From positions 2,480,001 to 2,544,000 of the forward strand of contig NZ_CP015378.1 in the NCBI RefSeq assembly GCF_001629705.1: DNA of 64,000 nucleotides. The letters are read 5' to 3'. Under the pieces are notes generated by a model that had not been told where the DNA came from, ran no database searches, and was given only the letters and a program-made list of their open reading frames with translations. The position numbers and the translations under genes are program-made. How positions within the stretch are numbered: the first letter of the stretch is position 1; each line of letters starts with the position of its first letter. Positions 20,701 to 63,232 of this stretch are shown piece by piece. This stretch comes from Fictibacillus phosphorivorans (lineage in GTDB: Bacteria; Bacillota; Bacilli; Bacillales; Fictibacillaceae).

Positions 20701-20763
20701 TAATACGGCGAGATTGGACGATAATACGACGAGTTTTCACTTTATATCAGCGAGTCGACAAAT
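20701..20763 (-). repeat. 21-bp-period array, locus B (three units)
   Basis: Three units start at 20701, 20722 and 20743, exactly 21 bases apart, with motif TAATACGRCGAG then TATATCAGCGAG. On the minus strand the array begins TGTCGACTCGCTGATATA and closely parallels the array at 56509-56600. It sits 230 bases upstream of the amidase start and downstream of the nth terminator. The remainder of 20470-20845 shows no gene. Confidence 0.85.
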
Positions 20764-20839
20764 CACGACATCCTCACCTCACTAAATACCCCCTATGAGT
20801 GCCGAATATTATACACCCTCTACCAAGAGTCTAAGGCAA

Positions 20840-20872
20840 AAGAAAAAACCGTAACTCCATCAGTTACGGTTT
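20840..20872 (-). terminator. Terminator of nth
   Basis: AAACCGTAACT (20846-20856) pairs with AGTTACGGTTT (20862-20872); on the minus strand a T-rich run follows. It is just past the nth stop at 20877. Confidence 0.9.
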
Positions 20873-20876
20873 CAAG

Positions 20877-21548
20877 CTATCTTTTCTGAGTCAGCTTTTT
20901 CTCTTTTTGGTTCATCCGCTTCTTACCTTCTCGGCAGATGGAGAGAAGTGGACACTCTGGGCAGTTTGGATTTTGTGCTTTGCAGTGATATCTGCCAAAG
21001 AAGATCAGACGGTGATGAGTTGCGCCCCATAATGATTTTGGAATCTTCTTCATCAGTGTTTCTTCTACCTGCAGAACAGAGTCTTTCCATTTACAGATAC
21101 CAAGCCTTTTCGAAACCCGTTCAACATGCGTATCGACCGCAATCGCAGGAACATCATAAGCGACAGATACGACAACGTTTGCCGTTTTTCGTCCTACGCC
21201 AGGCAGTTTCGTCAGTTCATCTCGATCTTTTGGTATCTCGCCACCGTACTCGTTGATCACGAGCTCACTCAGTTTTTGGATGTTCTTTGCCTTGTTTCGG
21301 TATAATCCGATCGACCGGATATCGTCCTGCAGCTCTTCTATCGTAACGTTCAGATAATCTTGCGGTGTTTTATATTTTTCAAAAAGCTTCGGTGTTACTT
21401 TGTTAACGAGCGCATCTGTACATTGCGCTGACAGAAGCACCGCGATTGTCAGCTCGAACGGGTTCGAGTGGTGAAGTTCGCAATGAGCGTCTGGAAACAT
21501 GTCCTCGATCTGCTCTAAACAAAATTGAATCTGTGCTTTGTTTAACAC
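20877..21548 (-). CDS. nth: Endonuclease III, base-excision DNA glycosylase/lyase
   Basis: 223 residues. The helix-hairpin-helix LPGVGRKTANVV is followed by the catalytic Asp in VDTHVERVSKRLG, and the lysine nucleophile lies in the LLSAQCTDALVNKVTP helix region. The C-terminal iron-sulfur ligands are CKAQNPNCPECPLLSIC. The enzyme removes oxidised pyrimidines and nicks the abasic site. It follows dnaD by 58 bases as in B. subtilis, where the pair is co-transcribed. Confidence 0.98.
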   Translation of the reverse strand: MLNKAQIQFCLEQIEDMFPDAHCELHHSNPFELTIAVLLSAQCTDALVNKVTPKLFEKYKTPQDYLNVTIEELQDDIRSIGLYRNKAKNIQKLSELVINEYGGEIPKDRDELTKLPGVGRKTANVVVSVAYDVPAIAVDTHVERVSKRLGICKWKDSVLQVEETLMKKIPKSLWGATHHRLIFFGRYHCKAQNPNCPECPLLSICREGKKRMNQKEKKLTQKR

Positions 21549-21606
21549 GTTTACGTGACCTCCTGTTATAAAAAAGAAAGACCCTAGTATAAGGCCATTT
21601 CATGTT

Positions 21607-22320
21607 TTATGATTCCAGCCAGTTGTATTGGGGACGCTTGATGCCTGAGTCGTTCCTTGGTTGCTCTTGTTTCCCCGTTCTTTGTAGCTGTCTGACTCTA
21701 AATTTTTCACCATACGTTTTAGCTGCTTCTGGACTTATAATGCCGTTTTTCTTCCACTCGAATAAAATACGATCAATATAACGGAAGTTCAGCTTCCCAG
21801 ATAAAACAGACTCTTTTAATGCTGTTAGAATCAACTCTGGAGACTGTTGATCCTCGTCCATCCAGATCTTAAGTGTTTCAAGTTCCATCGGAGATAAAGG
21901 ACGGCCGAACTCTTTTTCGAATCGGACGAATACGTTCTGTTCCTGGTGCTCCTTATGTACCTCTTTTTTAACCTGCTCTTCTTCTTTCAAACTTTGAAGA
22001 AGTCTGTTCCAAAGGGGCTGAAGCGTATAAGCTTCAAAATAGACGCCTTTTTCCTTATCTTCGAACTGATCCATACCGAGTACACCTCTGCCGATTAACG
22101 TCCTCAGCATAGCAGACACTTCATCACTCGAAGCGGACATTCGTTCAGATAGCTCGACAGGTGTCGGAAAGTAGTTTCCTGATTCTATAAAAACATGAAG
22201 CTGTATAAACAACATGCATTCGTTGTCTGATAGACCGATCTGTTTGTACGTTTTGATTAACATATTAGGGATGCTGACTGATCCTTCAGCCATCCATCGT
22301 TCAAATAAATTACCGTTCAT
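21607..22320 (-). CDS. dnaD: DNA replication initiation protein DnaD
   Basis: 237 residues. N-terminal DnaD_N winged-helix domain (IPNMLIKTYKQIGLSDNECMLFIQL, FPTPVELSERM), then the C-terminal DnaB_2/DnaD domain (FEKEFGRPLSPMELETLKIW, with IDRILFEWKKNGI, the YxxxIxxxW-type motif). DnaD acts with DnaB in PriA- and DnaA-dependent loading of the replicative helicase. ATG at 22320 has AGAGGTG 8 bases upstream; a GTG directly before it (22323) is a less likely start. Confidence 0.96.
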   Translation of the reverse strand: MNGNLFERWMAEGSVSIPNMLIKTYKQIGLSDNECMLFIQLHVFIESGNYFPTPVELSERMSASSDEVSAMLRTLIGRGVLGMDQFEDKEKGVYFEAYTLQPLWNRLLQSLKEEEQVKKEVHKEHQEQNVFVRFEKEFGRPLSPMELETLKIWMDEDQQSPELILTALKESVLSGKLNFRYIDRILFEWKKNGIISPEAAKTYGEKFRVRQLQRTGKQEQPRNDSGIKRPQYNWLES

Positions 22321-22476
22321 CACTAAAACACCTCTTGAAACATTATAGCATATAAAACTAGGTTTTTTATTTTCACTGTACTGGTGAATGTTGAGAAAAA
22401 AAGTAGTTTTTGAGCGTGATGAGCATATGCTAGTCGCTTGTCGAAATTTGCAGAACCGCCTTTATTTACTTTTTTT

Positions 22477-22581
22477 GACTTAATTGGTTCCGATTTTGAC
22501 TTAATTTTTTCATTTTAGACTCAATCGCATCCAAGTACGACTTAATTCTTCCTCAAAACGACTTAATTTCACGTTTTCCAC
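22477..22581. repeat. 21-bp-period array, locus A (five units)
   Basis: GACTTAATT-type cores start at 22477, 22498, 22518 (as GACTCAAT), 22539 and 22560: spacings 21, 20, 21, 21. Between cores the sequence is unrelated. It lies between the dnaD start (22320) and the asnS terminator. This gap of about 330 bases holds nothing else visible apart from that terminator. Confidence 0.85.
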
Positions 22582-22600
22582 ACTTTCTACACCCTCGAAA

Positions 22601-22635
22601 ACAAAAAAAAATCTCCCCGCATAACAGGGAGATTT
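22601..22635 (-). terminator. Terminator of asnS
   Basis: AAATCTCCC (22609-22617) pairs with GGGAGATTT (22627-22635), with a nine-T run on the minus strand after the stem. The asnS stop is 14 bases away. Confidence 0.92.
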
Positions 22636-22648
22636 TTAAATTTATTAA

Positions 22649-23941
22649 TTAAGGATACAAACGGTTCAATAGACGTGGGAATGGAATCGTTTCACGAACG
22701 TGCTCCGCTCCAGAGATCCAAGCTACTGTACGCTCTAATCCAAGACCGAATCCTGAATGTGGAACGCTTCCGTATTTTCTAAGTTCTAGATACCATTTGT
22801 AGGCATCGTCCGTTAACCCGTGCTCTTCATAACGCTGTTCCATTAATGCTAGGTCATCGATACGCTGACTTCCACCGATGATCTCTCCGTATCCTTCTGG
22901 AGCGATCAGGTCTGCACATAGTACAACATCTTCACGGTTAGGGTCTGGCTTCATGTAGAACGCTTTGATGTCTTTCGGATAGTTCGTTATGAAAACAGGC
23001 TTGTCGAAGCTTTCCGCGATCGCTGTTTCGTGCGGCGCACCGAAGTCGTCTCCCCACTCAATATCGTCAAACCCTTTTTCTTTTAGCATCTTGATCGCAT
23101 CGTCATAAGAAACACGAGGGAAAGGCGCTTTTACGTTCTCTAACTTAGAGATATCGCGTCCAAGTGTCTTTAGCTCGTTCTCACAGCGTGTGATCACAGA
23201 TTGAACGATGTGTGAGATGAACTGTTCTTGAATTTCAAGTGATTCTTCGTGTTCCACGAATGCCATCTCAGGTTCGATCATCCAGAACTCGATCAAGTGA
23301 CGACGAGTCTTTGATTTCTCTGCACGGAACGTCGGCCCGAACGAGTATACTTTTCCAAGTGCCATCGCTGCCGCTTCCATGTAGAGTTGTCCACTTTGTG
23401 AAAGATACGCATCTTCTTCAAAGTACTTCGTGTGGAACAATGAAGTCGTTCCTTCAGCAGAACTTCCTGTAAGGATCGGAGGATCTACTTTTGCAAAGTC
23501 GTTGTTGTAGAAGAACTCGTTCACTGCATGAATAATCTCGTTACGAATCTTTAAGATCGCGTGCTGACGCTTAGAACGGATCCAAAGGTGACGGTGATCC
23601 ATCAAGAACTCTGTTCCGTGTTCTTTCGGTGTGATCGGGTAGTCTACCGCTTGATGAAGCACTTCAACATCTGTTACTTCAAGTTCTACACCTAGAGCTG
23701 AACGCTCGTCCTCTTTAACCATACCCGTTACATAAAGACTGGACTCTTGCGTAAGTCCTTTTGCTTTTGCAAAGATCTCATCGCCTACTTCACTCTTAAC
23801 AACAACTCCTTGTACGAATCCAGATCCATCACGAAGCTGTAAGAAAGCGATCTTACCTGAAGAACGCTTATTAGAGAGCCAAGCACCGATCTTTACGGTC
23901 TTGCCTACGTGTTCACTAAGCTTATTAATCGTTGTTTTCAC
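22649..23941 (-). CDS. asnS: Asparaginyl-tRNA synthetase
   Basis: 430 residues, class IIb synthetase. N-terminal OB-fold anticodon-binding domain ([31 protein letters not shown]), then class II motif 2 ([25 protein letters not shown]) and motif 3 ([13 protein letters not shown]). It charges tRNA-Asn. The start is GTG at 23941 with GGAGG 8 bases upstream, giving the usual 430 residues; an in-frame ATG five codons earlier overlaps that ribosome site. It follows aspB in the same transcription direction. Confidence 0.97.
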
Positions 23942-24016
23942 TACATGTACCTCCACTGTACGTTATCAATATCTACCAAAAAAAATTATGAAGGAGAACT
24001 TTCTAAAAATCAATCA

Positions 24017-25201
24017 TTACTTCTGTTTTGAGTTGATAAAACGTTCGATGCGATCTAAAGCTTCCATGATCGTATCAAGGCTCGTTGCATAAGAAAGTCT
24101 CACGTTATTAGGCGCACCGAATCCTGAACCTGGTACTAATGCTACTTTTTCTTCTTCTAAAAGAGCTTCTACCCACTCATCAACAGAGTTAAATCCTGTC
24201 ATGCTAACCGCTTCTGTTGCGTTCGGGAACAGATAGAACGCTCCGTTCGGTTTCACACAAGTGATGCCAGGAATCGTGATCAGACGGTCGTACACTTTGT
24301 TCATACGTTCTTCAAACGCTTTGCGCATCTCTTCAACAGGCTCTTGTGTGCCGTTATAGGCTGCAAGTGCACCGTGCTGAGATGTTGTTGTTGGGTTCGA
24401 TGTACTATGGCTGTCTAAGTTCGTCATTGCTTTAATGATCTTAGCGTCACCTGCTGCAAAACCGATTCTCCAGCCTGTCATCGCATGTGATTTAGACAAA
24501 CCATTGATGATGATTGTTTGCTTTTTCAGCTCTGGTGAAAGCTCTGCAATTGATGTATGTTTCACTCCGCCGTAAACGAGTTTTTCATAGATTTCATCAG
24601 AAACGATTAAGATATCATTCTCAAGACACACTTCACCAATCGCGCGCAGCTCTTCTGCTGAATAAAGCGATCCTGTCGGGTTGCTTGGAGAGTTCAATAC
24701 AAGTGCTTTCGTTTGTTCAGTGATTGCTTTTTTAAGATCTTCTGCTGTGATCTTGAATCCATTCTCTTCTTTTCCTTCCAAGTAAACTGGCGTACCGTCA
24801 GCGAGTTTCACTTGTTCAGGATAGCTCACCCAATATGGTATCGGGATGATCACTTCGTCTCCTTCATCAAGGATCGCTTGAAACAGAGAGTACAACGAAT
24901 GTTTTGCTCCTGTACTTACAATGATCTCAGACGGTTCGTACGTTAACCCTTGATCTTGCTTCAGCTTGTTCACGATCGCTTTTTTTAGTGACAAAAGACC
25001 GCCAGAAGCTGTATATTTCGTGTGTCCTTCTTTCATAGACTCATAAGCCGCTTCAATAATATGTATCGGTGTATTAAAGTCAGGTTCACCTGCACCAAGT
25101 GCGATTACATCGTGCCCGTCTGCCTTTAATTGGTTTGCCTTTGCTGTGATTGCGAGAGTTGTTGAAGGAGTTAATGCCTCCACACGTTTTGCAAGCTTCA
25201 T
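24017..25201 (-). CDS. aspB: Aspartate aminotransferase, class I/II
   Basis: 394 residues, PLP-dependent fold type I. Visible: LGAGEPDFNTP, the NSPSNPTGSLYS block, the internal-aldimine lysine in INGLSKSHAMTGWRIGF (SKSH), and the C-terminal NVRLSYATS. It interconverts aspartate/2-oxoglutarate and oxaloacetate/glutamate. ATG at 25201 (MKLAKRVEAL) with GGAGGG upstream matches the family; the longer frame adds ten unsupported residues. ypmB ends 37 bases upstream, as in B. subtilis. Confidence 0.96.
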   Translation of the reverse strand: MKLAKRVEALTPSTTLAITAKANQLKADGHDVIALGAGEPDFNTPIHIIEAAYESMKEGHTKYTASGGLLSLKKAIVNKLKQDQGLTYEPSEIIVSTGAKHSLYSLFQAILDEGDEVIIPIPYWVSYPEQVKLADGTPVYLEGKEENGFKITAEDLKKAITEQTKALVLNSPSNPTGSLYSAEELRAIGEVCLENDILIVSDEIYEKLVYGGVKHTSIAELSPELKKQTIIINGLSKSHAMTGWRIGFAAGDAKIIKAMTNLDSHSTSNPTTTSQHGALAAYNGTQEPVEEMRKAFEERMNKVYDRLITIPGITCVKPNGAFYLFPNATEAVSMTGFNSVDEWVEALLEEEKVALVPGSGFGAPNNVRLSYATSLDTIMEALDRIERFINSKQK

Positions 25202-25238
25202 ACTACTAAATCCCTCCACGTTTTTATTCATCTGATTT

Positions 25239-25724
25239 CTATTGATCTGATTCTTTCAGACGATAGATTTCGTATCGCTCACCACTTTCAAAATAGCCGT
25301 AAAAGTAGGTGTAACGGTCCTTCGTGTCATAATAGACTACTTCCCATAATGGAATGTCGTCTTCCATACCGAGACGGCTGTCGACGATCGTCTTTGCATC
25401 ATGGTTCTGTTTCACATAATTCAGGATCTGTTTCTCTGAAAGTCCATCTTTCGCGTTCAAAGAGGTGACCTTTTTGTCTTTATCGACCCAAACGATCTTG
25501 TTTGTGCCTTTTTTGTTCTTACCTTCTACTACATAATACGTCTCATTCTTATAAAAGTGATCCACATTTGTAATAGAAACGAGGTCCTCTTCTTTCTTTG
25601 CGATCTCAACCGCTTCTGCTTCTTTCTTAGCGGGCTTTGCTTGAACACCATTAAACAGATAATAAGCTTGCCAGCTTGCTAAGATTAGAATGCCAATAAC
25701 AACAAGTATCCACTTTTTTCCCAT
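25239..25724 (-). CDS. ypmB: YpmB, PepSY-like secreted/membrane-anchored protein
   Basis: 161 residues with an uncleaved N-terminal membrane anchor (KWILVVIGILILASWQAYYLF) and an extracytoplasmic part with PepSY/DUF5590-like features (YVVEGKNKKGTNKIVWVDKDKK, VVYYDTKDRYTYFYGYFESGE). The homologue is located between ypmA and aspB. Function not established; PepSY domains are often inhibitory or sensing modules at the cell surface. Confidence 0.85.
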   Translation of the reverse strand: MGKKWILVVIGILILASWQAYYLFNGVQAKPAKKEAEAVEIAKKEEDLVSITNVDHFYKNETYYVVEGKNKKGTNKIVWVDKDKKVTSLNAKDGLSEKQILNYVKQNHDAKTIVDSRLGMEDDIPLWEVVYYDTKDRYTYFYGYFESGERYEIYRLKESDQ

Positions 25725-25736
25725 ATTTAAGCCTTC

Positions 25737-25907
25737 CTATGTGCGATAGATCGTAAAAATCATCTTATTTTTATTATCGTCATCTAACGCGAGCCCAAAC
25801 ATTAAATCTTGATGCTTTAATGTTTTGTTCAGTTCAGATACTACTTTATACAAGTCACTCGACTTGTCCACCTTTAGCGTCGAAAGAACTTCAATTTTGC
25901 TTTCCAC
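25737..25907 (-). CDS. ypmA: YpmA, DUF4264 family small protein
   Basis: A 56-residue protein too short for many gene callers. GTG at 25907 is preceded by AGGAGG. Product: MESKIEVLSTLKVDKSSDLY, then KVVSELNKTLKHQDLMFGLAL and ends KMIFTIYRT, matching the length and pattern of YpmA. It lies 13 bases ahead of ypmB, same order as B. subtilis (dinG-ypmA-ypmB-aspB). Function unknown. Confidence 0.88.
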   Translation of the reverse strand: MESKIEVLSTLKVDKSSDLYKVVSELNKTLKHQDLMFGLALDDDNKNKMIFTIYRT

Positions 25908-26054
25908 GGTTCTTCCTCCTCTTACATCAATCTTTTCCTTGTTTACTATAGCAGAAAATCGGTGAAAAAGGTACTTTAGAATCCTTTAATAAGAAGGAAA
26001 AATGACTTTGTTTATGCTTACTTTGTAAACTAGCTTCCTAAATCAAGAGGTAAA

Positions 26055-26090
26055 CAAAAATAAACCGACCAGATATAAAATATGGTCGGT
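26055..26090 (-). terminator. Terminator of the cyanophycinase-family gene
   Basis: ACCGACCA (26064-26071) pairs with TGGTCGGT (26083-26090); a T-rich run follows on the minus strand. It is 15 bases past the stop at 26105. Confidence 0.85.
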
Positions 26091-26104
26091 CACAAATGGA
26101 AATA

Positions 26105-28642
26105 TCATTTTTTTGAATTGATTTTTACATTTACCGGAGTTATATCAAGAATAACATTCACGAACGAATAATCATCTTTCTGCCCGTCCGTATATCCCCA
26201 ATAACCTTCTGTTTCTTCGATCTTACGAAAGTTCAACTCAAATCCCCTTCCGTTATTAAAGCTGTAGCTTTTTACACTCTCCGCTCCAGCATTATCAACT
26301 AAATTATAAGAGATGAATTTGTTTAACACGCTGTGACCACTCAATACACCTGAATGAGGCGGGACAATATGTTCGTAATACTCGTAGCCTTTCGTGCTTT
26401 CTTTCTTCTCATTAATGATTATGTTCTTCGTTCTTAGATCGAGGATGTCTCCTTGATTGATCCAAGATAGTTTAATATTCTTAAATTGACTTTGACCAAA
26501 ATCTGGACTTCTTAGCTGTTGAGACAGATCGACTAACGTTACGCCTCCTCTTCCAACAACTTCAGCTTTTTTATCTTCGTTATATATGACAAGAGCCGTG
26601 TCCTCATCTATACCATATGATAAATTCTTAGGTTCACCTTTTTCATCTGCTACCGCGATCAAGCGTCCAAGACGTGCTTTCTTATCAAAGTGCTGATCAA
26701 TGATGCCGTGTTCAAAAAAACCGAGCCCTCGTTCTAGATAACCTGGTCCTCCCTCTTGCTGCAGCATTCCGTCATACGTATTCGTAAATCCGGATGCTAG
26801 TGTATCATGACTGCCTCCACCGGCAATCATTACATCACTCATTATTGCTGCCCCAGCACTCGTTCCACCAAGCACTGCCCCGTTTCTATACGATTTCCAA
26901 ATCGCGTTCAATACTTTTGAATTTGTTCCGTTCTTGTTCAATAACGAATCTGTAATCTTTGTCTGATCTCCGCCTACAAACCAAACCGCATCTAGTCTCT
27001 CAACATTCTTTGCAAGTTCTTGATCGTTCTTATTTAAATCAGCCCATTTTGATTCATCTTCCGGTGTTTTTTTGTCGTCAGTTACAGCGAGAGGAAGTAT
27101 CTCAATATTCTCTGGTGACATCCCGTATCGGACGAGGTCTTCTTTAAATGCCTTAGATGAAACTAAACTAGAGCTTGCAGCAGGTATGATTCCGACTCTG
27201 GAATCTTCTTTTTGTTTAGCAAGATCAATGAACTTTTTATACACGTCCTGATTACTGCTTCCTAAAGCACCTCCAGCAATCAACAGGTTTCCTTTAACCG
27301 GTTCTGAGCGATCGATGACTGGAGGGATAAATGAAGACTTTTTGTACTCAGTGAATGCATTTGCATTCTTTTTGAAACTTACCTTTTTAGGAGCTACATC
27401 AAAAGCAACGTTTGTAAAAGAATAGTCGTCTTTTTGTCCGTCTTTATAACCCCAATAGCCTTTTGTGTTTTCCGTTTTTCTAAAAGTAAGCTGAAATCCT
27501 TCCCCTTTAGAATCGTACAAATAACTTTTCACAGCATTCGTTGTCGTATTATCAATCAGGGAATACGAGAGATATTCTTTCAACCTTCCATAAGAAGTAA
27601 AAACTCCTGTTGCATCAAGCGGTTTGAATTCGTAATACTCATATTCGTTCGTCTCATCTTTATGATCGCTTATGAAAAATTCTTTAGTAGAAACATTCAA
27701 AGTATCACCTGAAACGAGATGGCTGATATAAACATCTTGAAAATGAGCACTATCAGAATCAATCACCTTCGTTTTGCTAACATCAACAACAGATACGCCG
27801 CTTCTTCCGACTATCTTTACTGTTTGTTGTTTGTTGTTCACGATAAGAGCTGTATCTTCATCTACACCATAAGCAAATTGATTCCTCGTTTTCTCTTTTA
27901 GTGCCGTCATTACCAGTCTCCCAAGACGTGCACGTTCATCAAAATGCTGATCTACAATGCCATACTTAAAGAATCCGAGCCCTTTTTCAATATGCAATGG
28001 TTCGTATTCTTCACCTGATTTTAGGTTATTCTTCATAACAAACTCTTTGTTTAGTGCGCCTAAGCTGTCACCACCGGTAATCATCACATCGCTCATGATG
28101 GCTGCACCAGCACTCGTTCCTCCAAGGACACCACCTTCCTTATACATCTTCCAAATCGCGTCTAATGCTTTCGTCCGATGGCCGTTCGGTTTTACTAATG
28201 TATCTGTAATTCGCAGCTGATCTCCACCAACAAACCAGATCGCGCTATAATTCTCAATCTTGTTTGCTATTCGTTTCCTGTTTGCGTTTTTTCTCCATTT
28301 GGATTCATCTTCTGATGTACCGCTGAAATCTTGATTTGCTAGAGGAACGATCTCGATCTGATGCTCATGTAACCCATATGTAATGAGATCTTTTTTAAAG
28401 CTTTGGGAAGATTTTAAGGAACTACTTGCTGCAGGTATGATTCCAATTTTGGCCTCTTTCTTACCACCTGCTAAACTGATAAATTCGTTATATACTTCCT
28501 TATTGCTACTCCCTAGAGCTCCTCCGGCAATCACAAGGTTTCCTTTCCAATCATCCTTTTTCTTAGCAAAACTTATTGATGAGGTAGTTAGTGATAAGCC
28601 AAGCGTCATAGCCAACGTTACAGACATCCATTTTTTGTTCAA
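26105..28642 (-). CDS. Secreted tandem cyanophycinase-family (peptidase S51) protein
   Basis: 845 residues: a signal peptide (NKKWMSVTLAMTLGLSLTTSSISFA), then two homologous units of about 400 residues. Each has GNL(L/V)IAGGALGSSN, WFVGGDQ, the nucleophile motif LGGTSAGAAIMSD, and GI(V/I)DQHFD, followed by a private C-terminal module ending GYWGY-DGQKDDYSF-NV. Both nucleophile serines are intact. Cyanophycinases cut beta-Asp-Arg dipeptides from cyanophycin. TTG at 28642 is chosen because GGAGGAG lies 9 bases before; an ATG at 28660 lies across that site. It is an insertion between ypmA and dinG. Confidence 0.88.
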   Translation of the reverse strand: MNKKWMSVTLAMTLGLSLTTSSISFAKKKDDWKGNLVIAGGALGSSNKEVYNEFISLAGGKKEAKIGIIPAASSSLKSSQSFKKDLITYGLHEHQIEIVPLANQDFSGTSEDESKWRKNANRKRIANKIENYSAIWFVGGDQLRITDTLVKPNGHRTKALDAIWKMYKEGGVLGGTSAGAAIMSDVMITGGDSLGALNKEFVMKNNLKSGEEYEPLHIEKGLGFFKYGIVDQHFDERARLGRLVMTALKEKTRNQFAYGVDEDTALIVNNKQQTVKIVGRSGVSVVDVSKTKVIDSDSAHFQDVYISHLVSGDTLNVSTKEFFISDHKDETNEYEYYEFKPLDATGVFTSYGRLKEYLSYSLIDNTTTNAVKSYLYDSKGEGFQLTFRKTENTKGYWGYKDGQKDDYSFTNVAFDVAPKKVSFKKNANAFTEYKKSSFIPPVIDRSEPVKGNLLIAGGALGSSNQDVYKKFIDLAKQKEDSRVGIIPAASSSLVSSKAFKEDLVRYGMSPENIEILPLAVTDDKKTPEDESKWADLNKNDQELAKNVERLDAVWFVGGDQTKITDSLLNKNGTNSKVLNAIWKSYRNGAVLGGTSAGAAIMSDVMIAGGGSHDTLASGFTNTYDGMLQQEGGPGYLERGLGFFEHGIIDQHFDKKARLGRLIAVADEKGEPKNLSYGIDEDTALVIYNEDKKAEVVGRGGVTLVDLSQQLRSPDFGQSQFKNIKLSWINQGDILDLRTKNIIINEKKESTKGYEYYEHIVPPHSGVLSGHSVLNKFISYNLVDNAGAESVKSYSFNNGRGFELNFRKIEETEGYWGYTDGQKDDYSFVNVILDITPVNVKINSKK

Positions 28643-34681: not shown

Positions 34682-34836
34682 CATAGGAAAAAATCCTAGA
34701 CTTTTATTGTTTGCTCCCTCTGTCCCGGTCCTAAATTTGGATCTAGGCAGATATAAGGTTTGTGGTTAAAACTAGACAAGATTAGTGCAGTTCCACTCGG
34801 ATACCGCCTACAACATTATTTTATCACGGACTTTCC

Positions 34837-46327: not shown

Positions 46328-46424
46328 AAAAAAATCTCCTTACTTGGTATGTACTGCTTCTTATCGTACCATATTTCGCTAGCTGGCAAGGTGTTTCGTC
46401 TGCAAAATAGGTAGATTTATAGAT

Positions 46425-46552
46425 GTCGAAATAAGTCTACAAGTGTCGACTTGCGGATAAAAGTAAAAAATTCGTGGATAAAGTGACCAAACTTTTGGAT
46501 TGATAGTTAAAATTTGTGGATTCAAAGCAGAAATTTATGGATTGGGTGCAAA
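46425..46552 (+). repeat. 21-bp-period array, locus C (five clear units)
   Basis: GGAT cores at 46455, 46476, 46497, 46518 and 46539: all spacings exactly 21. A degenerate unit with GTCGA at 46425 and 46445 precedes them. The head is TGTCGACTTGCGGATA. Between the cores the bases vary but are A/T-rich. The gap 46328-46654 between ypiF and ypiB also contains the ypiB terminator and nothing else recognisable. Confidence 0.9.
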
Positions 46553-55472: not shown

Positions 55473-55534
55473 CTCGGCTCTGCTCCACTCAAACTCTCTC
55501 AACTTGTCTCAACTAGGCTCTAAACTCTAAACTA
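55473..55534 (-). promoter_or_regulatory. TRAP (MtrB) binding site: about 11 NAG triplets
   Basis: On the minus strand, UAG, UAG, GAG, UAG, GAG, AAG, GAG, GAG, GAG, GAG, GAG, GAG occur nearly all at 5-base steps (2-base spacers), for example TTGAG-AC-AAG-TT-GAG and GAG-CA-GAG-CC-GAG. This matches the RNA ring-binding site of tryptophan-activated TRAP, whose gene mtrB is at 62209. When bound, the antiterminator cannot form and transcription stops at the attenuator. Confidence 0.88.
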
Positions 55535-55570
55535 TTGTGCACCATTTCATGTGCTCTAAACTTATCAGTT

Positions 55571-55599
55571 ACATTAAACTATTGATGTAATTCTGTCAA
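55571..55599 (-). promoter_or_regulatory. SigA promoter of the trp operon
   Basis: TTGACA (55599-55594) and TAATGT (55576-55571) on the minus strand with a 17-base spacer, 28 bases past the cheR stop. Transcription would start near 55564, giving a leader of about 300 bases to trpD. Confidence 0.85.
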
Positions 55600-55626
55600 C
55601 TGATTTCAATGGATCAATTTTTATTA

Positions 55627-56406
55627 TTAACAGAGTTTTCGATAAAAGAACGGTTCTACCGATTCTAAGTCGTATAACGCGGGATTGAATATCTGCTCGG
55701 TACTTCCGACGAATAGAACACCGCCTTTTCGAAGGGCTTTGCTAAACTTTTGATACAGAACGGTCTTTGCTTCTTCCGTAAAATAGATCATCACATTTCG
55801 GCAGACGATCAGATCAAAATCAGAATCAAAACGATCTGAAAGCAAGTTCTGCTTCTTAAACGTTACATGCTTTTTAATCGAGTCTGAAACACCTATACCA
55901 AGGTCCTGTTTTGTTGTATGTCGTGTTCTTTTATCGCTCGGCACATCTTTAATCGCTTTTTCAAAATAAAATCCTTTTTTTGCTTGATCTAACACTTGTT
56001 GATCTAAGTCGGTTGCAAGTATTGAAAACTTTGATAAACCCTTTTTGTAATCGGATAACAACATCGATAAGCTGTAAGGCTCTTCTCCTGTAGAGCAGGC
56101 TGCGCTCCATACTTTTAACGATGACCTGTCACCCATTAACAGAGGAATGATTTTTTTCTCCAGTACATCCCAACGAGCAGGATTTCGGTAGAATTCAGAC
56201 ACGTTAATGGTCATACGATCTAAAAACTCAAGAAGCAATTCTGGATTTATTTTGAGTGCCCGAAAGTATTCTGAGAACGTTGTAAATGATCGTTTGTCCC
56301 TCAGTGCAATGAGTCTTCGTTTCATTTGTGCTTCTTTGTATAGAGAAAGGTCAATTCCTGTTTGTTCATAAATGCTCTGTTTAAAGCTTTCGTAGTCCGG
56401 GTCCAT
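55627..56406 (-). CDS. cheR: Chemotaxis methyltransferase CheR
   Basis: 259 residues: N-terminal helical receptor-binding domain (YESFKQSIYEQTGIDLSLYKEAQMKRRL) and SAM-dependent domain with VSEFYRNPARWDVL, WSAACSTGEEPYSL (SAM loop) and FDLIVCRNVMIYF. Methylates glutamates of chemoreceptors. In B. subtilis it precedes aroF; here it leads straight to the trp promoter. No clear terminator of its own is visible. Confidence 0.96.
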   Translation of the reverse strand: MDPDYESFKQSIYEQTGIDLSLYKEAQMKRRLIALRDKRSFTTFSEYFRALKINPELLLEFLDRMTINVSEFYRNPARWDVLEKKIIPLLMGDRSSLKVWSAACSTGEEPYSLSMLLSDYKKGLSKFSILATDLDQQVLDQAKKGFYFEKAIKDVPSDKRTRHTTKQDLGIGVSDSIKKHVTFKKQNLLSDRFDSDFDLIVCRNVMIYFTEEAKTVLYQKFSKALRKGGVLFVGSTEQIFNPALYDLESVEPFFYRKLC

Positions 56407-56508
56407 ATGTCTCTCTCCAATTCAATTCCATTAAAAATTTTCGTCTATGTATGTGTAATATCGGATCGAAAACTAAATTGTTGCGTTATCGGTTGGACAT
56501 CGTTCAAA

Positions 56509-56600
56509 TGTCGACTCGCCGATATAATGCGAAAACTCGCTGGATTATCCTTAAAACTCGCCGGATTAACTTGTAAACTTGCGGGATTACTTCAAAAACT
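56509..56600 (+). repeat. 21-bp-period array, locus D (four units)
   Basis: CTCGC/CTTGC cores start at 56515, 56536, 56557 and 56578, exactly 21 apart; each is followed by (G)GAT and ATTA-like sequence. Head: TGTCGACTCGCCGATATA. As 21 is seven codons, a spurious frame here repeats a KLAGL heptad. It lies in the 412-base gap between cheR and ndk; no gene is visible there. Confidence 0.9.
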
Positions 56601-56769
56601 TTCATGTAGGAGGTTAGGAAATACATAATAGACACTAGATTTTGGTGTTAAAACGAATTTTTTTAACTGACAACCTCAAAACCTGCTTCTCTGCTTCAAT
56701 ATAGTAACGAATAGAGCAATCTCACTCACTTTTCTTCACAATGCGGTAAATTTCACCGCTATAAATAAT

Positions 56770-56793
56770 AAAAAACCGGCACACAGGCCGGTT
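56770..56793 (-). terminator. Terminator of ndk
   Basis: AACCGGC (56774-56780) pairs with GCCGGTT (56787-56793), six-base loop, T-run on the minus strand; 26 bases past the ndk stop. Confidence 0.88.
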
Positions 56794-56818
56794 AAAACGC
56801 TTTCATTTCCATGTAAAA

Positions 56819-57262
56819 TTAAATCCAAACCGCTACTGCTTTATCATAAGAAACAAGTTCTTCTTCTTTAAAGAAAAGACCGATCTCACGGACAGCGCTT
56901 TCAGCAGAGTCAGAACCATGGATGATATTGTTACTTACTTGTACAGCATAGTCTCCGCGGATTGAACCAGGAGCAGCTTCAGAAGGATTTGTTTTGCCCA
57001 TCATGTTACGAGCTGTAAGAATAACGTCCTTACCTTCCCAAACCATAGCAAATACTGGACCAGATGTAATGAAATCAACAAGTTCGCCGAAGAACGGACG
57101 CTCTTTGTGCTCACCATAATGTTCTTTTGCAAGATCTTCAGAAATGTTCATTAGTTTAGCACCAACAAGTTGAAAACCTTTCTTTTCAAAACGGGATACG
57201 ATTTCTCCGATTAACGCACGTTGGACACCATCAGGTTTTACCATTAAAAACGTTTTTTCCAT
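56819..57262 (-). CDS. ndk: Nucleoside diphosphate kinase
   Basis: 147 residues: [20 protein letters not shown], and the phosphohistidine loop [17 protein letters not shown] (His in HGSD). It equilibrates NTP pools. Located between hepT and cheR exactly as in B. subtilis. GGAGAGG precedes the ATG. Confidence 0.98.
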
Positions 57263-57346
57263 GCATTCCCTCTCCTATCATCTATGTATATGTGGGACAA
57301 GTTCCCCAGAGAAATCGTACCAAAAATTTTAAAAATTAGCAATCAC

Positions 57347-58312
57347 TCAAAATTTTCGACCAGCGATATAGTCTGCAACCTTTAACAAACTATCTCTGGC
57401 ATCCGTTTCTGGCAAAGACTCGGCAGCTAATTTAGCGCGCTTTAAATATTTATCAGATATCTTTGTTGCGTAATCAATTCCGCCTAACTCTTTGATATCT
57501 TTCAACAGTTCTGCAAGTTGAGCAGGATTTTTTGACTCATAATAAGCATCCAGTTTCTCTTTCATCTCTGGATACTGATAGATCGTGTACAGCACAGGCA
57601 ATGTTAAGTTTCCTTGCTTCAGGTCACTTCCTGCTGGTTTACCGAGCTGTTTTTCAGAAGCCGTAAAGTCTAAGATATCGTCTGTGATCTGAAAAGCCAT
57701 TCCAACAGAGAAACCAAAATCATACAACTTCTTTTGAAGAGAAACATCTGCTTTTGACGTAATCGCTCCAAGTTGACAGCTCAGTGCGATTAGAAGTGCG
57801 GTTTTTCGTTTGATTCGTTTGAAGTATTTTCGAATGTTTTGATCTGTGTCGTACTGTTCGTTGATCTGCTCGATCTCCCCAAGACACATCTCTTTCATGC
57901 CTTGTGCCAAAATCTGGTGCGCACGCGGAATTTCGATCTCAGACATCAGCTTTAAGGCGGATGCGAAAATAAAATCGCCTGTATACATGGCAATCTTGTT
58001 ATCGTATTTTGCTTTTACGGTCTTTCTGCCGCGTCTCATATCCGCGTCATCCACAACATCATCATGAACGAGCGAAGCCATGTGGATCAGTTCAAGAGCT
58101 GCAGCCGGCTTTTTTACTTGTTGAATATTATATGTGCCGAACTGAGCGGAAAGCAGAACAAACACAGGGCGGATTCTCTTTCCCCCTGCTTTTAAAAGTT
58201 CAGCTCCTGCCGTATGAATCTGTTTCTGATCGGAACGAACGGATTCTACGAGCTGATCTTCAATCTGCTGCAAATCTTTTTTTAGAAATGAGTATAAGTC
58301 CTTTAACTTCAC
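57347..58312 (-). CDS. hepT: Heptaprenyl diphosphate synthase component II
   Basis: 321 residues, trans-prenyltransferase with both Asp-rich motifs: LVHDDVVDDADMRRG (first DDxxD) and QITDDILDF (second), plus GGKRIRPVFVLLSA. With HepS (61345) it makes the C35 side chain of menaquinone-7. Downstream of mqnA by 22 bases; last gene of the menaquinone operon. Confidence 0.96.
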   Translation of the reverse strand: MKLKDLYSFLKKDLQQIEDQLVESVRSDQKQIHTAGAELLKAGGKRIRPVFVLLSAQFGTYNIQQVKKPAAALELIHMASLVHDDVVDDADMRRGRKTVKAKYDNKIAMYTGDFIFASALKLMSEIEIPRAHQILAQGMKEMCLGEIEQINEQYDTDQNIRKYFKRIKRKTALLIALSCQLGAITSKADVSLQKKLYDFGFSVGMAFQITDDILDFTASEKQLGKPAGSDLKQGNLTLPVLYTIYQYPEMKEKLDAYYESKNPAQLAELLKDIKELGGIDYATKISDKYLKRAKLAAESLPETDARDSLLKVADYIAGRKF

Positions 58313-58334
58313 TTTTGTTTCACCCTATCGCCCG

Positions 58335-59162
58335 TTACTTATACGAATATTTAATGATAGAGGGCATTGTTTTTAACAATCCGCACTCTACAGCTAGCTG
58401 AAAATAAAGGTTGAGTCCCTTTTCATGTTCGCCACTAAATTGATAATTTAATCCATTAAAATAAGAATTCCAGAACTGAAAAGTGCCTCCATGTTCTGTT
58501 ATCGCTCGCTCGATGACTGGAACAAAATTTTCTCTTTGACATCTCTCTTTGCTCTCTATCATACTTCTTCCTACGTAAGACAACAACGCACCCTGTTCGG
58601 TCTCCATTTCATTTCGATACGCCATCACGGCAAAGATCATAGGTAATCCTGTCTGTTGATACCAGATCTCGCCTAGGTCATATACGTTATAAGAGCCTCG
58701 TTTTCGGTATGCGCTTATTGCATCGTCTCCTATCAAAAGGCATGCGTCATATGTGTTCAACATAGCTTCAAAATTTGGTGTTTCTGTCTTGTAAGCAACC
58801 TCTACACCATAAAAACGATCTAAGATGATTTTCAATAGAGCGACTGATGTTTCTGAACTAGATGTTAATGCGATTCTTTTACCGTCCAACTCTTCGATCT
58901 TAAACTTTGAAAAAAGAAAGATAGAGTTTACTTTTCCGAACGAAGAAACAGAAAGATCTGGAACCAAACTATAGTTATGAGCGTTCTTTCCGTATGAAAA
59001 CGAAGAGATGCCTCCAATATCGACCAACTGTTTCTCCATTAAAGCGTTTACCCGTGATGGAACCGCTTGTGTAATGGTCGCACCTTGATCCATCAGGCGT
59101 TCTCTATCTAAATAAAAATAAAGGGGTATGATGTTCGTGTAGCTGATTTCCCCGATGTTCAT
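58335..59162 (-). CDS. mqnA: Chorismate dehydratase MqnA (futalosine pathway)
   Basis: 275 residues, periplasmic-binding-like fold of the MqnA/DUF178 family: IGEISYTNIIPLYFYL, VPSRVNALMEKQLVDIGGISSFSYG, IALTSSSETSVALLKIIL, ACLLIGDDAI and YDLGEIWYQQTGLPMIFAVMAYR. MqnA dehydrates chorismate to 3-enolpyruvyl-benzoate, the first step of the futalosine menaquinone route. Six bases after ubiX. B. subtilis uses the MenFDHCEB route instead, so this is a real difference. Confidence 0.9.
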   Translation of the reverse strand: MNIGEISYTNIIPLYFYLDRERLMDQGATITQAVPSRVNALMEKQLVDIGGISSFSYGKNAHNYSLVPDLSVSSFGKVNSIFLFSKFKIEELDGKRIALTSSSETSVALLKIILDRFYGVEVAYKTETPNFEAMLNTYDACLLIGDDAISAYRKRGSYNVYDLGEIWYQQTGLPMIFAVMAYRNEMETEQGALLSYVGRSMIESKERCQRENFVPVIERAITEHGGTFQFWNSYFNGLNYQFSGEHEKGLNLYFQLAVECGLLKTMPSIIKYSYK

Positions 59163-59168
59163 AATCTA

Positions 59169-59759
59169 TCAGTCTCCCCAGCGTGTAAACAATTCGTGAT
59201 GTACACCTAAGTTATCTAGTACTTTACCTACCAAAAAGTTCACTATGTCATCCATCGACTTTGGCAGGTGATAAAAACCAGGCATCGCAGGAACAATCTT
59301 TCCTCCTGCTTCTGTTACTTTTAACATGTTTTCAAGATGAATCTTATGAAGTGGTGTTTCTCTTGGCACTAAGATTAGTTTTCTGCTCTCTTTCAGCATA
59401 ACGTCTGCTGTACGTTCTAACAGGTTTCCTGAAGCACCATGAGCGATCCCAGAGAGAGTTCCCATCGAACAAGGAATGATGACCATGCCGTCGTTCTGAT
59501 ACGAGCCACTCGCGATCGGTGCATTAAAGTCACGAAGTGTGTGATAATGAAGACGATCTTTGCCATATGAAGCAAAATTCTCTTCTATACAGCGTTCGCG
59601 GTCTTCTGTATTCCACAATAATTCTTCTCTGAACACTTGCCAACCTGCTTCCGTTACAACAAGATGTAACTTGTGTCCGCTTTTTAAGATCTCTTGAGCA
59701 AGTCTTACTCCGTATACAGCTCCACTCGCTCCTGTTATTCCGATTGTAAAAGTTTTCAT
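59169..59759 (-). CDS. ubiX: Flavin prenyltransferase UbiX
   Basis: 196 residues, flavoprotein: FTIGITGASGAVYGVRLAQ, SYQNDGMVIIPCSMGTLSGIAHGAS, and RKLILVPRETPLHKIHLENM. Makes prenylated FMN for a UbiD-type decarboxylase. In a futalosine context it would support the late decarboxylation (MqnL/M pair); the UbiD-like partner is not in the window. It overlaps ubiA by four bases. Confidence 0.94.
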   Translation of the reverse strand: MKTFTIGITGASGAVYGVRLAQEILKSGHKLHLVVTEAGWQVFREELLWNTEDRERCIEENFASYGKDRLHYHTLRDFNAPIASGSYQNDGMVIIPCSMGTLSGIAHGASGNLLERTADVMLKESRKLILVPRETPLHKIHLENMLKVTEAGGKIVPAMPGFYHLPKSMDDIVNFLVGKVLDNLGVHHELFTRWGD

Positions 59760-60619
59760 ATCAACAAATCTCCCACTGAAAAGATAAACATGACAACACT
59801 CAATACTCCGTTCATCGTAAAGAAGGCCACATCTAGTTTAGAAAGATCATGAGGCTTAACGAGTGAATGCTCATACACCATGATCGCACCAGATATGAAC
59901 ACACCTAGGTAGTAGATCCAGCCCATTCCTGATACAATGCCAAGTGAGACGAAAGCTATGAAACTAGCAACATGCAGCCATCTAGCAGTCATCAGACCAT
60001 TTGCGATACCAAATGAAGATGGAATAGAGTACAGACCATGTGTTTTATCATATTCAGCATCTTGTGTCGCATAGATCACGTCAAAACCAGCTGTCCAAAA
60101 CAATACACCTATAAATAGTAAAAAGGCTTCGGGACTTAATGTTCCGGTCGCACCTACCCAACCGCCTAGTGGTGCGATGGCGATCGTGACACCTAACACG
60201 ATATGACACAAATACGTAAAACGCTTCGTATACGAATAGATAACAAGAAAAAAGACCGCAAGCGGCAAAAGCTTTACGGAAAGTGCATTTAGTTGGTAAG
60301 CACTAACGAACAACAAAGCTAATGAGATCAGTATGAAAAGATAGACTTCCCCTCTTTTCAAAAGCTTAGCTGGTATCGCTCTTGTTTTCGTTCTAGGATT
60401 TCTTCCATCAATCTCTGAATCTATCGCACGGTTTAAGGCCATAGCAGAGCTTCGTGCACCTACCATGGCTAGTGTGATCCAAATCCATTCCATTAAGGAT
60501 GGAACTGTCCCCTCTTCCACAAGGTTTCCCATGATCGCTCCAAGAAACGCAAAGGGTAGAGCAAAGATGGTATGTTCAAACTTTATCATTTCTAAAATTA
60601 TTTTAATTTTATTCCACAC
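59756..60619 (-). CDS. UbiA-family prenyltransferase (MqnP-like)
   Basis: 287 residues, about eight membrane helices: KFEHTIFALPFAFLGAI, ARSSAMALNRAIDSEIDGRNPRTKTR (NxxxDxxxD Mg site), second Asp motif DVIYATQDAEYDKTHGLYSIP. It transfers the heptaprenyl chain onto the aromatic ring, MqnP in the futalosine route, rather than MenA. GTG 60619 with GAGAG upstream gives family length; the frame remains open to 60673, inside menG. Confidence 0.92.
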   Translation of the reverse strand: MWNKIKIILEMIKFEHTIFALPFAFLGAIMGNLVEEGTVPSLMEWIWITLAMVGARSSAMALNRAIDSEIDGRNPRTKTRAIPAKLLKRGEVYLFILISLALLFVSAYQLNALSVKLLPLAVFFLVIYSYTKRFTYLCHIVLGVTIAIAPLGGWVGATGTLSPEAFLLFIGVLFWTAGFDVIYATQDAEYDKTHGLYSIPSSFGIANGLMTARWLHVASFIAFVSLGIVSGMGWIYYLGVFISGAIMVYEHSLVKPHDLSKLDVAFFTMNGVLSVVMFIFSVGDLLI

Positions 60620-60635
60620 ACTGCAACGCTCTCTT

Positions 60636-61340
60636 CTATTGCTGTTTTTTCCCTGTATGCATGGCCGCAGCACCTAAAGCATACGATTTAACTTCAACGT
60701 TAGACAAACCCGCTTGTTTGAAAAGTTCTTTTAGTTCTTCTTTTGTTAAAAAAGCTTCTGTTGATTCTTGAAGCCATGCGTATTCTTGGTAACTTTTTGC
60801 GAACAGCTTACCGAATACTGGCATGATATAGGTAAAATAAAACTTAAAGAGCTGCTTGAACACCGGAACCGTCGGATGCGAAGTCTCTAGACACACCACT
60901 CTGCCACCCGGCTTCACAACTCGTGCCATCTCTTTCAGTGTCTGAAGATAATCAGGAACGTTTCTAAGACCAAACCCGATCGTGACGAAATCAAAGCTGT
61001 TATCATCGAACGGAAGTTCCATCGCGTTGCCATGGATGAAGCTGACTCCAGGAGATCGGCGTTTTTTTAACTTTTCGATCCCAACATTCAGCATGTTCTG
61101 GCTAAAATCTAGGCCGACTACTTTTCCTTCAGTACCAACTTCTTCAGCTAGAGCGAACGTCCATTCACCTGTCCCACAACAAACATCTAAACATTGGTTA
61201 CCAGGCTGTACTTTCATTCTTTTCATCGTATCTTTACGCCATTTACTATGCTGTTTAAAAGAGATCAGATCGTTCATGTAATCATACTGATCTGAAATCT
61301 TTTCAAATACAGAGTGAACCCGTTCTTCTTTACTCAACAT
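60636..61340 (-). CDS. menG: Demethylmenaquinone methyltransferase
   Basis: 234 residues, SAM methyltransferase of the UbiE/MenG family: [38 protein letters not shown] (SAM loop), [34 protein letters not shown]. It methylates demethylmenaquinone, the last step. Four bases behind hepS, as in the hepS-menG-hepT unit of bacilli (menH in old maps). Confidence 0.97.
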
Positions 61341-61344
61341 CGGA

Positions 61345-62058
61345 TTAACCCTCTCCTAACATTAAGTCATTTTTGTTAGCATCCACCATATTGTATCCTT
61401 CTCTATGAAACAACAATGGCATCTCAACTTCTTTATTCTTAAGTTCCTTCTCGCATGTCTTAAGGTAGTTCAACTGATCGTCACTCAATCGTCTTCTCGA
61501 ATCAAGACTATGGTACCGTGACACAAGTAGGTACCTCTCAATAAAAGGTATATATGTATAAAGACCAAACGATTCAGCAGCTTTAGTTAATAAAAGACTA
61601 TCTATCTTTTGCGCGGCTTTTAAATATTCAACGTTCGTGGTTGAAAACTTGTCCTTATTCTGACTATGCAGATCTGCCTTCAGTTCGTTAATTTCCTGAA
61701 CCGCACTCGATAGCTTTGAGATCAGATCTAGATTTTCACAGTGAGATAAAAGTAAGTAGTAGAGACTGCTAAAATAATCGCCTGACAACACGACAAGCTG
61801 ACGGTTCTTTTTGTTCTCGTTGATTTCCTCTTTTAAGATGTCATCATGACGGTCCAATGCAGACTGAATGAGCGTAATCGAACTAAAATACTCGGCTTCT
61901 ACAGCTTCATCCAATTCGAGTTCACGCAGCAGACAGTACGTGATGAATACTTTGGATTCATTAAAGACTGGAGGTTGGATATATCGTTCTACATAACTGT
62001 GCTGCATCAATAAAAGTGTATGTTGTTTTAAACGTTGAATTTGTTCCATGGTGTTCAT
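61345..62058 (-). CDS. hepS: Heptaprenyl diphosphate synthase component I
   Basis: 237 residues, all-helical: [47 protein letters not shown]-like [21 protein letters not shown]. This small subunit has no catalytic Asp motif and works with HepT. ATG 62058 has GGAGGG 5 bases upstream. First gene of the menaquinone operon, after mtrB. Confidence 0.92.
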
Positions 62059-62148
62059 CAAATCCCTCCAATGACACAGCAAAATTGTGCTTTCTTATTA
62101 TAACATAGTCGCCAAAATTATTAGGATTCAACCTCTTTAAAAGACATA

Positions 62149-62176
62149 AAGAAAACTAGGCTTATCTTTAGCCCAG
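62149..62176 (-). terminator. Terminator after mtrB
   Basis: On the minus strand CTGGGCT pairs with AGCCTAG (one G-T pair) and TTTTC follows. It lies 33 bases past the mtrB stop and ahead of hepS. Confidence 0.7.
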
Positions 62177-62208
62177 CTTTTTGGCACGTGTTCCGCCGAA
62201 AGTTATCT

Positions 62209-62427
62209 TTAAGATTCTGTATCTACTTCTCCGTGTTTCGTGTAGATCACTGCTTTTCCTCTAACCTTTACAGCTGAAGTATGTTCAGTGAACTGAGCGA
62301 TCATCACTTCGCCTTTATCAAGCTTTTCAGAATGGTGAAATCTTGTTTCTGTACCACGCGTTAAGCCGATCACGTTTACGCCGTTCTCTTTCGCTTTGAT
62401 CACGAAAAAATCAAATTCTGATTTCAT
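62209..62427 (-). CDS. mtrB: TRAP, trp RNA-binding attenuation protein
   Basis: 72 residues: [56 protein letters not shown]. Eleven subunits form a ring that binds tryptophan and NAG-repeat RNA; the KLDKGE and RGKA residues for RNA contact are present. Its likely target, the trp leader at 55473-55534, is in this window. Thirteen bases after folE, same pair as mtrA-mtrB in B. subtilis. Confidence 0.98.
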
Positions 62428-62439
62428 GAAGTTACCTCC

Positions 62440-63006
62440 TTAGTTTTTGATTAAACTTAGTACTTCTGCACGTGCCGCAGGATCTTTTTCAAATACTCCA
62501 CGCACTGCTGAAGTAACCGTCATAGAGCCCGGTTTTTTTACACCACGCATCGTCATGCACATATGCTCTGCTTCGATCACAACGATCACACCATGAGGTT
62601 CTAAAGTTTCCAACAAGCTGTTCGCAATCGTTGAAGTGATTCTTTCTTGAAGTTGAGGTCGTTTTGTAACAGCTTCCACAGCTCTCGCAAGCTTGCTTAA
62701 TCCTGTTACTTTTCCACCTTTAGGTATGTATCCGATATGCGCTTTGCCAAAGAAAGGTACGAGATGATGCTCACACATGGAGTAGAAAGGAATGTCTTTT
62801 ACAAGCACTAATTCTTCATGATCTTCTCCAAAAATAGTAGCAAAGTGCTCTTTAGGATCTTGATTCAATCCTTGAAAGACTTCTTCATACATTTTCGCAA
62901 CTCGTTTTGGTGTATCTATTAAACCCTCTCGCTCAGGATCTTCACCTATCGCTTCTAATATCATTTTTACAGCTAACTCAATTTTTTCTTTTTGAACTTC
63001 TGCCAC
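62440..63006 (-). CDS. folE: GTP cyclohydrolase I
   Basis: 188 residues: [43 protein letters not shown] (zinc Cys and His), [23 protein letters not shown], and [18 protein letters not shown] (second Cys). First step of folate synthesis. GTG 63006 with GGAGG 9 bases upstream; the frame stays open to 63186 but that extension is made of array E and is not protein-like. Confidence 0.97.
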
Positions 63007-63110
63007 GCCGGTTGTCCTCCAATTCCATTCACACAATAGAAAAATTTTAGCATAATGAAGAAAGAATAGCAAAAAGAGAAAACCCTTACGCCGTGTGAGG
63101 AGTGGATCTT

Positions 63111-63232
63111 GGCGAATCATAACCTGAGTTGCCGATAAAATCGGATTTTTGCCGATATATTTTAATTGTTGCCGATATAATCCCAATTCTTGCTGATATA
63201 TTTTAATTCTTGCCGATATATCGTCTCACTCT
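63111..63232 (+). repeat. 20/21-bp-period array, locus E (five to six units)
   Basis: GCCGAT (once GCTGAT) cores at 63131, 63151, 63171, 63192 and 63212: spacings 20, 20, 21, 20. GGCGAATCA at 63111 fits as a degenerate first unit. Units read TTGCCGATATATTTTAATT with variations. It occupies the gap between the folE start and the hbs terminator; nothing else is seen in this gap. Confidence 0.9.

Follow-up and report, generated by a model that had tools for sequence, protein, structure and literature searches.

What are the short, degenerate direct repeats that occupy five intergenic spaces in one stretch of the Fictibacillus phosphorivorans chromosome? The stretch, which we will call the window, is 64,000 nucleotides long (NZ_CP015378.1, positions 2,480,001 to 2,544,000), and we refer to its arrays as A1 to A5 (Table 1). 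An earlier reading of the window (the original prediction) had suggested that these might be phased protein-binding arrays, relics of replication slippage, or insulators. We propose that they are phased, protein-binding boundary elements, which would act at the DNA level at the ends of transcription units. We give this proposal, with its putative protein and function, a probability of about 45%. We prefer it because a phased nucleoprotein element in this position best fits the anatomy of the arrays, their placement, and the constraint on them.

We confirmed that all five spaces contain degenerate direct repeats at 20-21 bp, as had been described. Tandem Repeats Finder called three of the five arrays, with periods of 20-21 (46489-46544, 56531-56601, and 63128-63220), and a lag scan of the window recovered every array except A5, which was missed because it was masked by chance calls of open reading frames (ORFs). 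As a chance model, we used 2000 first-order Markov resamplings of each space. The real score at lags of 20-22 was reached by 54 resamplings for A1, 2 for A2, 1 for A3, and none for A4 or A5. Taken alone, A1 would be a weak case statistically. We accept it because it is a full element of the T1 type (described below) and has counterparts in four sister strains (one of these is shortened).

The original prediction also depended on an excess of 21-bp periodicity across the genome. We found this excess in a 400 kb sample of the 4.23 Mb chromosome (20 stretches, with 59.6 kb of intergenic DNA). Intergenic self-similarity segments numbered 22 at a lag of 21, 11 at 42, and 7 at 63, versus 0-4 at each of the other lags from 8 to 70. 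In coding DNA from the same sample, there were 10 segments at lag 21 and 0-7 at other lags. Similarly, 11 Fictibacillus loci around dnaD had 23 segments at lag 21. The excess was absent from 69 dnaD loci from outside the genus (1 segment). Isolated arrays do occur there: two dnaD loci, titled Alkalihalobacillus and Pseudalkalibacillus, have a 20-bp array, and there is one of ~21 bp, of the GCGCGCAAA type, in a Bacillus locus (L040:12080-12240). Arrays of this kind are therefore not confined to Fictibacillus.

The arrays sort into types with cores that are shared across the genome, including T1 (AAAACTCGCCGGATTA), T2 (GACTTAATT), T3 (TGGATT), and further ones. The claim that the arrays differ from one another is correct for the cores of different types, but A1 and A4 are of the same type and the types recur in the genome. 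The claim that units are homogenised within an array is true only in part, because T1 has a separate consensus for every position in the series of units. (At L099:16826-17090, in the space between divergent genes, two arrays of the TGGACAGATTA/TACTGTCCA type lie back to back with their TGTC edges facing.)

T1 is an element of ~160 bp. It has GGGGTAT on its left, then TTGTCGA, then five 21-bp units, and then a dyad, ATACC..GTAT. GGGGTAT on the left and ATACCCC on the right are candidate terminal inverted repeats, but conservation runs on past the right copy. We aligned 27 copies, of which four dropped out at the left text anchor and three at the right. (For these seven, a fixed text match failed; the element is not necessarily missing.) In the 20 copies that we measured, the distance from unit 0 to the right dyad was 105 bp (5 x 21) in 18; the two exceptions were at 104 and 102 bp. 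A1 is a complete T1 and is longer than the 20701-20763 of the original prediction (Table 1). By inspection, T2 copies linked to rRNA genes and one T3 copy have similar outer modules, and many arrays have TGTCRA at one edge. Clear outer modules were not seen in A4. The left-half pattern (GGGTAT, 14-34 nucleotides, TTGTCGA) has 16 matches in this genome versus 5 for a reversed control; this excess is absent in several divergent genomes.

Searching 60 genomes with a T1 profile gave matches in 16 of the 18 Fictibacillus genomes, with 2 to 53 copies each, including at least 25 in this genome and at least 53 in a relative, G016. (With 82 or 87 candidates scored per genome, all copy numbers for T1 and T2 are lower bounds.) Outside of the genus, there were 10 copies in one genome from another genus of the family and 2 weak ones in a genome from another family. 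The T2 profile matched 15 of the 18 Fictibacillus genomes, with one weak match elsewhere.

The arrays are conserved in sister strains, as the original prediction required, and they are also subject to turnover. At the A4 site, six close strains have T1 units (2 to 6 by eye), three strains have another core, two divergent genomes have a third core, and seven have no array or nothing clear. At A5, counts by eye in seven close strains gave 4-7 units. At the A3 site, seven close genomes have a T3 array and three divergent Fictibacillus genomes have a recognisably similar one. In G016, the same site (L174:1129-1372) contains 12.2 copies of an unrelated 20-bp unit with 99% matches, which is perhaps a new array being born. 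The histories of A3 and A4 imply that the site and the period can persist while the sequence is replaced. At some orthologous sites, whole segments are missing.

Within the types, the cores are constrained. Across 74 pairs of T1 or T2 elements, divergence was 6.2% at conserved positions, 32.7% at low-information positions, and 24.0% in the flanks, so the cores are about 5 times less divergent than low-information positions at the same loci. (These pairs are orthologous or paralogous via rRNA operons and are not independent; we excluded elements with a score below 40 and pairs that differed by more than 40%.) Because the conserved positions in this test had been chosen from the profiles, we ran another test in which sites were located through their flanking genes only, using only close genomes and leaving out the strain with the shortened A1. 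The divergence of the array was 0.115 for A3 (7 genomes), 0.143 for A2 (6), and 0.168 for A1 (4), as compared to 0.206-0.351 for the adjoining spacer at these sites. (The promoter regions at A2 and A3 were at 0.120-0.122.) Overall, arrays changed more slowly than the adjoining spacer at three of the four window sites that we compared.

We then asked where the arrays lie relative to genes. For T1, we used 29 copies from the top of the ranked list: 15 of the at least 25 in this genome, including two from the window, and 14 of the at least 53 in G016. In 25 of the 29, the 3' end of a gene points at the element, and T1 is oriented with that gene. At tandem gene pairs, the orientation is biased by 15 to 2 (p = 0.002). 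Ten of the 29 copies lie between convergent genes, which implies that a downstream promoter is not required. The ratio of convergent to divergent spaces was 10:2 for T1 and 38:48 for sampled spaces (p = 0.014; T1 is from two genomes and the background is from one). Of the sampled spaces that are faced by a gene end, 17 of 141 have an array.

Arrays are also found after rRNA operons. We read 30 loci downstream of 5S genes, from among 81 listed matches. All 19 loci that lack a tRNA gene within 520 bp downstream have an array there (these loci come from 12 genomes; two of the arrays are weak, with scores of 10.5 and 11.5). In contrast, loci that run into tRNA genes have no array within 520 bp (0 of 11). 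On random stretches of matching size, the detector gave 31 hits in 1200. These arrays use five different cores: GACTTAATT, TTTATAAGTCTTCA, TGAGCGTAA, AATTACGGCCTATAAA, and CCGCGGATAA. In other Bacillales, a like detector found arrays in none of 28 5S loci, 11 of which have no tRNA gene in 520 bp. (Two of these other genomes, at L355 and L362, have repeats of ~60 bp by eye downstream of 5S, which are not 21-bp arrays.) Downstream of an rRNA operon, the space at L083:18776-19220 has a pair of arrays that differ in their cores and are enclosed by facing TGTCGA/TCGACA edges, ~445 bp apart.

The phasing is also visible in base composition. Across 28 arrays of many types (scanned stretches of 46-107 bp), the alternation of weak and strong base pairs had a mean power of 5.8 at 10.5 bp, 3.9 at 21 bp, and 1.0 at 7 bp, while shuffles gave 0.9-1.0 (0.94 at 10.5 bp). 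Individually, 21 of the 28 arrays score at least 4 at 10.5 bp. The power for purine/pyrimidine alternation at 10.5 bp was 3.4. In a wedge model, the predicted curvature was 8.4 for T1, 5.0 for control spaces, and 4.25 for T2, which argues against curvature as a property common to all arrays.

Could the arrays act as RNA, or encode protein? RNAalifold on 18 copies of T1 gave a consensus of -3.4 kcal/mol with changes on both sides in 2 of 15 pairs, which does not support a structure; folds of six single copies had z-scores from +0.5 to -1.3; and an Rfam scan of the window found nothing but a pan motif. Together, these results give no support to an RNA element. As for coding, 21-bp units would keep the reading frame, but 16 of 23 copies of T1 have no uninterrupted forward frame, so steady coding is unsupported. 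In the other 7 of 23, one frame is open over the 105 bp, and gene callers may annotate such arrays as hypothetical proteins with heptad repeats.

Table 1. Repeat arrays in the window.
Array	Position	Strand	Type and components	Surroundings
A1	~20634-20793	minus	complete T1: GGGGTAT, TGTCGT, TTGTCGA, five units, dyad ATAC(N8)GTAT at 20634-20649	
A2	22439-22572	plus	T2: TGTCGA, CCTTTATTT, then GACTTAATT units	between asnS terminator and dnaD gene
A3	46424-46550	plus	T3: two copies of TGTCGA at a spacing of 20 bp, followed by GTGGATAA/TGGATT units	
A4	56509-56600	plus	T1: TGTCGACTCGCCGATATAA and three units	ndk terminator on one side, next gene on the other
A5	63123-63221	plus	T4: TTGCCGATATAAT units, period 20-21	HU gene terminator on one side, folE on the other

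Among the genes that neighbor these arrays, nth, a DnaD-domain protein, asnS, a ReoY-family gene, ndk, and folE match NCBIfam families above the curated cut-offs. HU is the best match of its gene, yet below the cut-off. The remaining three neighbors have a weak match in NCBIfam or none. The gene next to A4 is CheR-like, with a match below the cut-off. Among eleven Fictibacillus hits, four have a DnaD that is 97% identical to the one in the window. The pan motif (RF01749) lies on the minus strand at 34716-34810.

How might such elements work? The phasing, the anatomy of the elements, the placement and orientation bias of T1, and the constraint are directly shown. The phased protein-binding arrays of the original prediction are consistent with the helical phasing, the constraint, and the placement; the binding itself, the wrapping, and a blocking role are what we infer, with an insulator or boundary as the leading role. 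A DNA-binding protein, or several related ones, would contact all of the 20-21 bp units from the same side of the helix. AT and GC tracts tend to alternate with each turn of this DNA, which would bend or wrap to form a compact complex of ~100-165 bp. This complex would sit just beyond the intrinsic terminator of the upstream unit and would limit read-through transcription into the next unit, the spread of supercoiling into it, or both. If this is correct, then this genus separates its transcription units with a dedicated nucleoprotein past the ends of genes, including, among the rRNA operon ends that we examined, those that are not followed by tRNA genes. It would also open the control of read-through, supercoiling, and forks at rRNA ends to experimental tests.

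Several observations weigh against this proposal. Because the core changes from one type to another, no single sequence-specific protein can account for all of the arrays. A5 is without constraint (0.213 versus 0.216-0.264 in its flanks). The share of changes that preserve the weak/strong class is nearly the same in cores as in flanks (67 of 215 versus 555 of 1922). We therefore see no selection on the AT/GC pattern alone; within a type, the letters themselves seem to matter. Four arrays of the TTTATAAGTC type have little signal at 10.5 bp (1.4-3.0), and T2 is not predicted to be curved. In an unselected sample, the bias towards convergent genes was not significant (5:1, p = 0.08). The orientation of T2 is not clear by gene calls (the left gene points at the array in 8 of 14 cases), in part owing to rRNA genes that had been wrongly called as ORFs. 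We also considered high expression of the upstream gene as an explanation, but codon adaptation gave no support: genes that face arrays do not have higher values (17 versus 124 genes, p = 0.28; for a T1/T2 set of 19, p = 0.34). (The reference for codon adaptation was 12 ORFs picked by their position near rpoB-sized genes, not by annotation.) Finally, the 11 tRNA-less 5S loci from other Bacillales have no arrays, so the role is not universal.

A special case of our proposal, with a known protein, is that the arrays attract a topoisomerase or a wrapping protein. They would be strong sites for gyrase, or for a wrapper of the LrpC or RemA type, and would take up positive supercoiling in front of transcription. 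In E. coli, the gyrase motif spans ~130 bp with a GC periodicity of 10.75 bp, and gyrase accumulates downstream of rRNA operons (excerpt of PMC6379681); the arrays' alternation of AT and GC at ~10.5 bp is similar, and arrays follow all 19 of the tRNA-less rRNA ends. RemA binds poorly conserved AT-rich repeats, and DNA wrapping has been proposed for it (excerpt of PMC8481266). We nevertheless think that this is rather unlikely. The gyrase motif is symmetric about the cleavage site, while the arrays run head-to-tail with sequence-specific cores; there is no link to codon adaptation; predicted curvature is found in T1 and not T2; and core changes are not biased toward keeping the weak/strong class. 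Also, the arrays look restricted in their distribution, whereas gyrase is, as far as is known, universal. We are similarly doubtful that the arrays are small non-autonomous mobile elements, either like miniature inverted-repeat transposable elements (MITEs) or single Tn7-like ends, that land or survive downstream of terminators, with the units as sites for a putative transposase. This explanation keeps real weight because the copies are dispersed, have outer modules in common, and are absent at some orthologous sites. It would also account for the TGTCRA edge of many arrays: a Tn7-like element in this genome (G000 C1:161550-181000; loci L111/L112), with a PF09299 transposase at 168.9 kb and downstream of a glmS-sized, putative glmS gene, has TGTTGA at its left end and then a four-unit array of period 20. 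The two arrays at L083 are framed by facing TGTCGA edges in the manner of transposon ends, although their cores differ. And the bias towards convergent genes is shared with BOX elements, for which it was interpreted as tolerance (excerpt of PMC3049150). Tn7-like ends were our strongest early lead, but we rejected them as the main explanation. By eye, 16 of 17 array spaces have no facing TGTCGA pair, and the transposase does not track the arrays: PF09299 is in 4 of the 18 genomes of the genus, versus 16 of 18 for T1, and G013 has the transposase and no match to T1. We did not notice target-site duplications or clean empty sites by eye (array-less sites are too diverged), and freely varying spacer positions beside constrained cores fit simple copying poorly.

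Slippage with a preferred period of two helical turns could produce neutral minisatellites. Slippage-like gain and loss of units does occur: the number of units varies between close strains at A4 and A5, the 12.2 near-identical copies in G016 look like a product of it, and A5 shows no constraint. But slippage would not be expected to give a five-unit T1 with outer modules, types that recur across the genome, or arrays at 19 rRNA ends, and relics should not have cores that are ~5 times less divergent than their low-information positions, or arrays that change more slowly than adjoining spacer at three of four sites. We therefore disfavor this part of the original prediction and consider it quite improbable. 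Least plausible of all, and very improbable in our view, is that the arrays are regulatory sites for the downstream gene or a transcribed RNA element. Every array in the window is upstream of a gene start, and TGTCGA presumably resembles a Spo0A box. However, a third of the T1 copies (10 of 29) lie between convergent genes, the orientation of T1 follows the upstream gene, and an RNA structure is unsupported.

The original prediction knew of no named feature that fits, and this still holds within the literature that we searched. Mostly in titles and the beginnings of abstracts, and with few subscription journals, we found no description of such arrays in work on 21-bp intergenic repeats in Bacillus or Firmicutes, intergenic repeats in Fictibacillus, or BOX- or MITE-like repeats in Bacillaceae. 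The layout does resemble several known systems. Like the BOX elements of Streptococcus (boxA-boxB(n)-boxC; excerpt of PMC3049150), T1 is, by alignment, a small, dispersed intergenic element with modules that flank a tandem array. The likeness is one of layout. Unlike BOX, the arrays have phased 21-bp units, an unsupported RNA fold, a placement after rRNA operons, and cores that can be different in copies whose outer modules are alike. The bacterial interspersed mosaic elements (BIMEs) and repetitive extragenic palindromes of enterobacteria are also intergenic, and BIME-2 is enriched in gyrase cleavage sites (excerpt of PMC6379681), but BIMEs are palindromic and the arrays are head-to-tail. The array part resembles the TnsB-site arrays of Tn7-like ends, with a TGT edge and in-phase 20-bp units, as in this genome's own element. 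Members of the Tn7-like group generally have site arrays at both of their ends (excerpt of PMC8649781), whereas our arrays are, as a rule, unpaired, and the presence of the transposase does not follow them. The extended motif of DNA gyrase resembles the arrays in its location downstream of rRNA operons and in its AT/GC alternation (excerpt of PMC6379681); a gyrase site would have the ~10.5-bp period over at least 100 bp, and in the arrays it is a property of the group, from scanned stretches of 46-107 bp. Unlike that motif, the arrays are direct repeats with specific cores, and we identified no central cleavage dyad in them.

The mammalian Sal-box/TTF-I system is an rDNA terminator and fork barrier, with repeated short sites just past the rRNA genes. 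The arrays are similar in their location, but they also follow many protein genes, and their bound protein is putative. An unlikely but more specific form of our proposal is that the arrays are a prokaryotic counterpart of the Sal-box barrier, in which the helical period and the position past terminators are kept while the core is repeatedly replaced, and putative proteins co-evolve with the core or ignore it. That the core is replaced while the period and the site are retained would suggest that helical spacing counts more than any one sequence.

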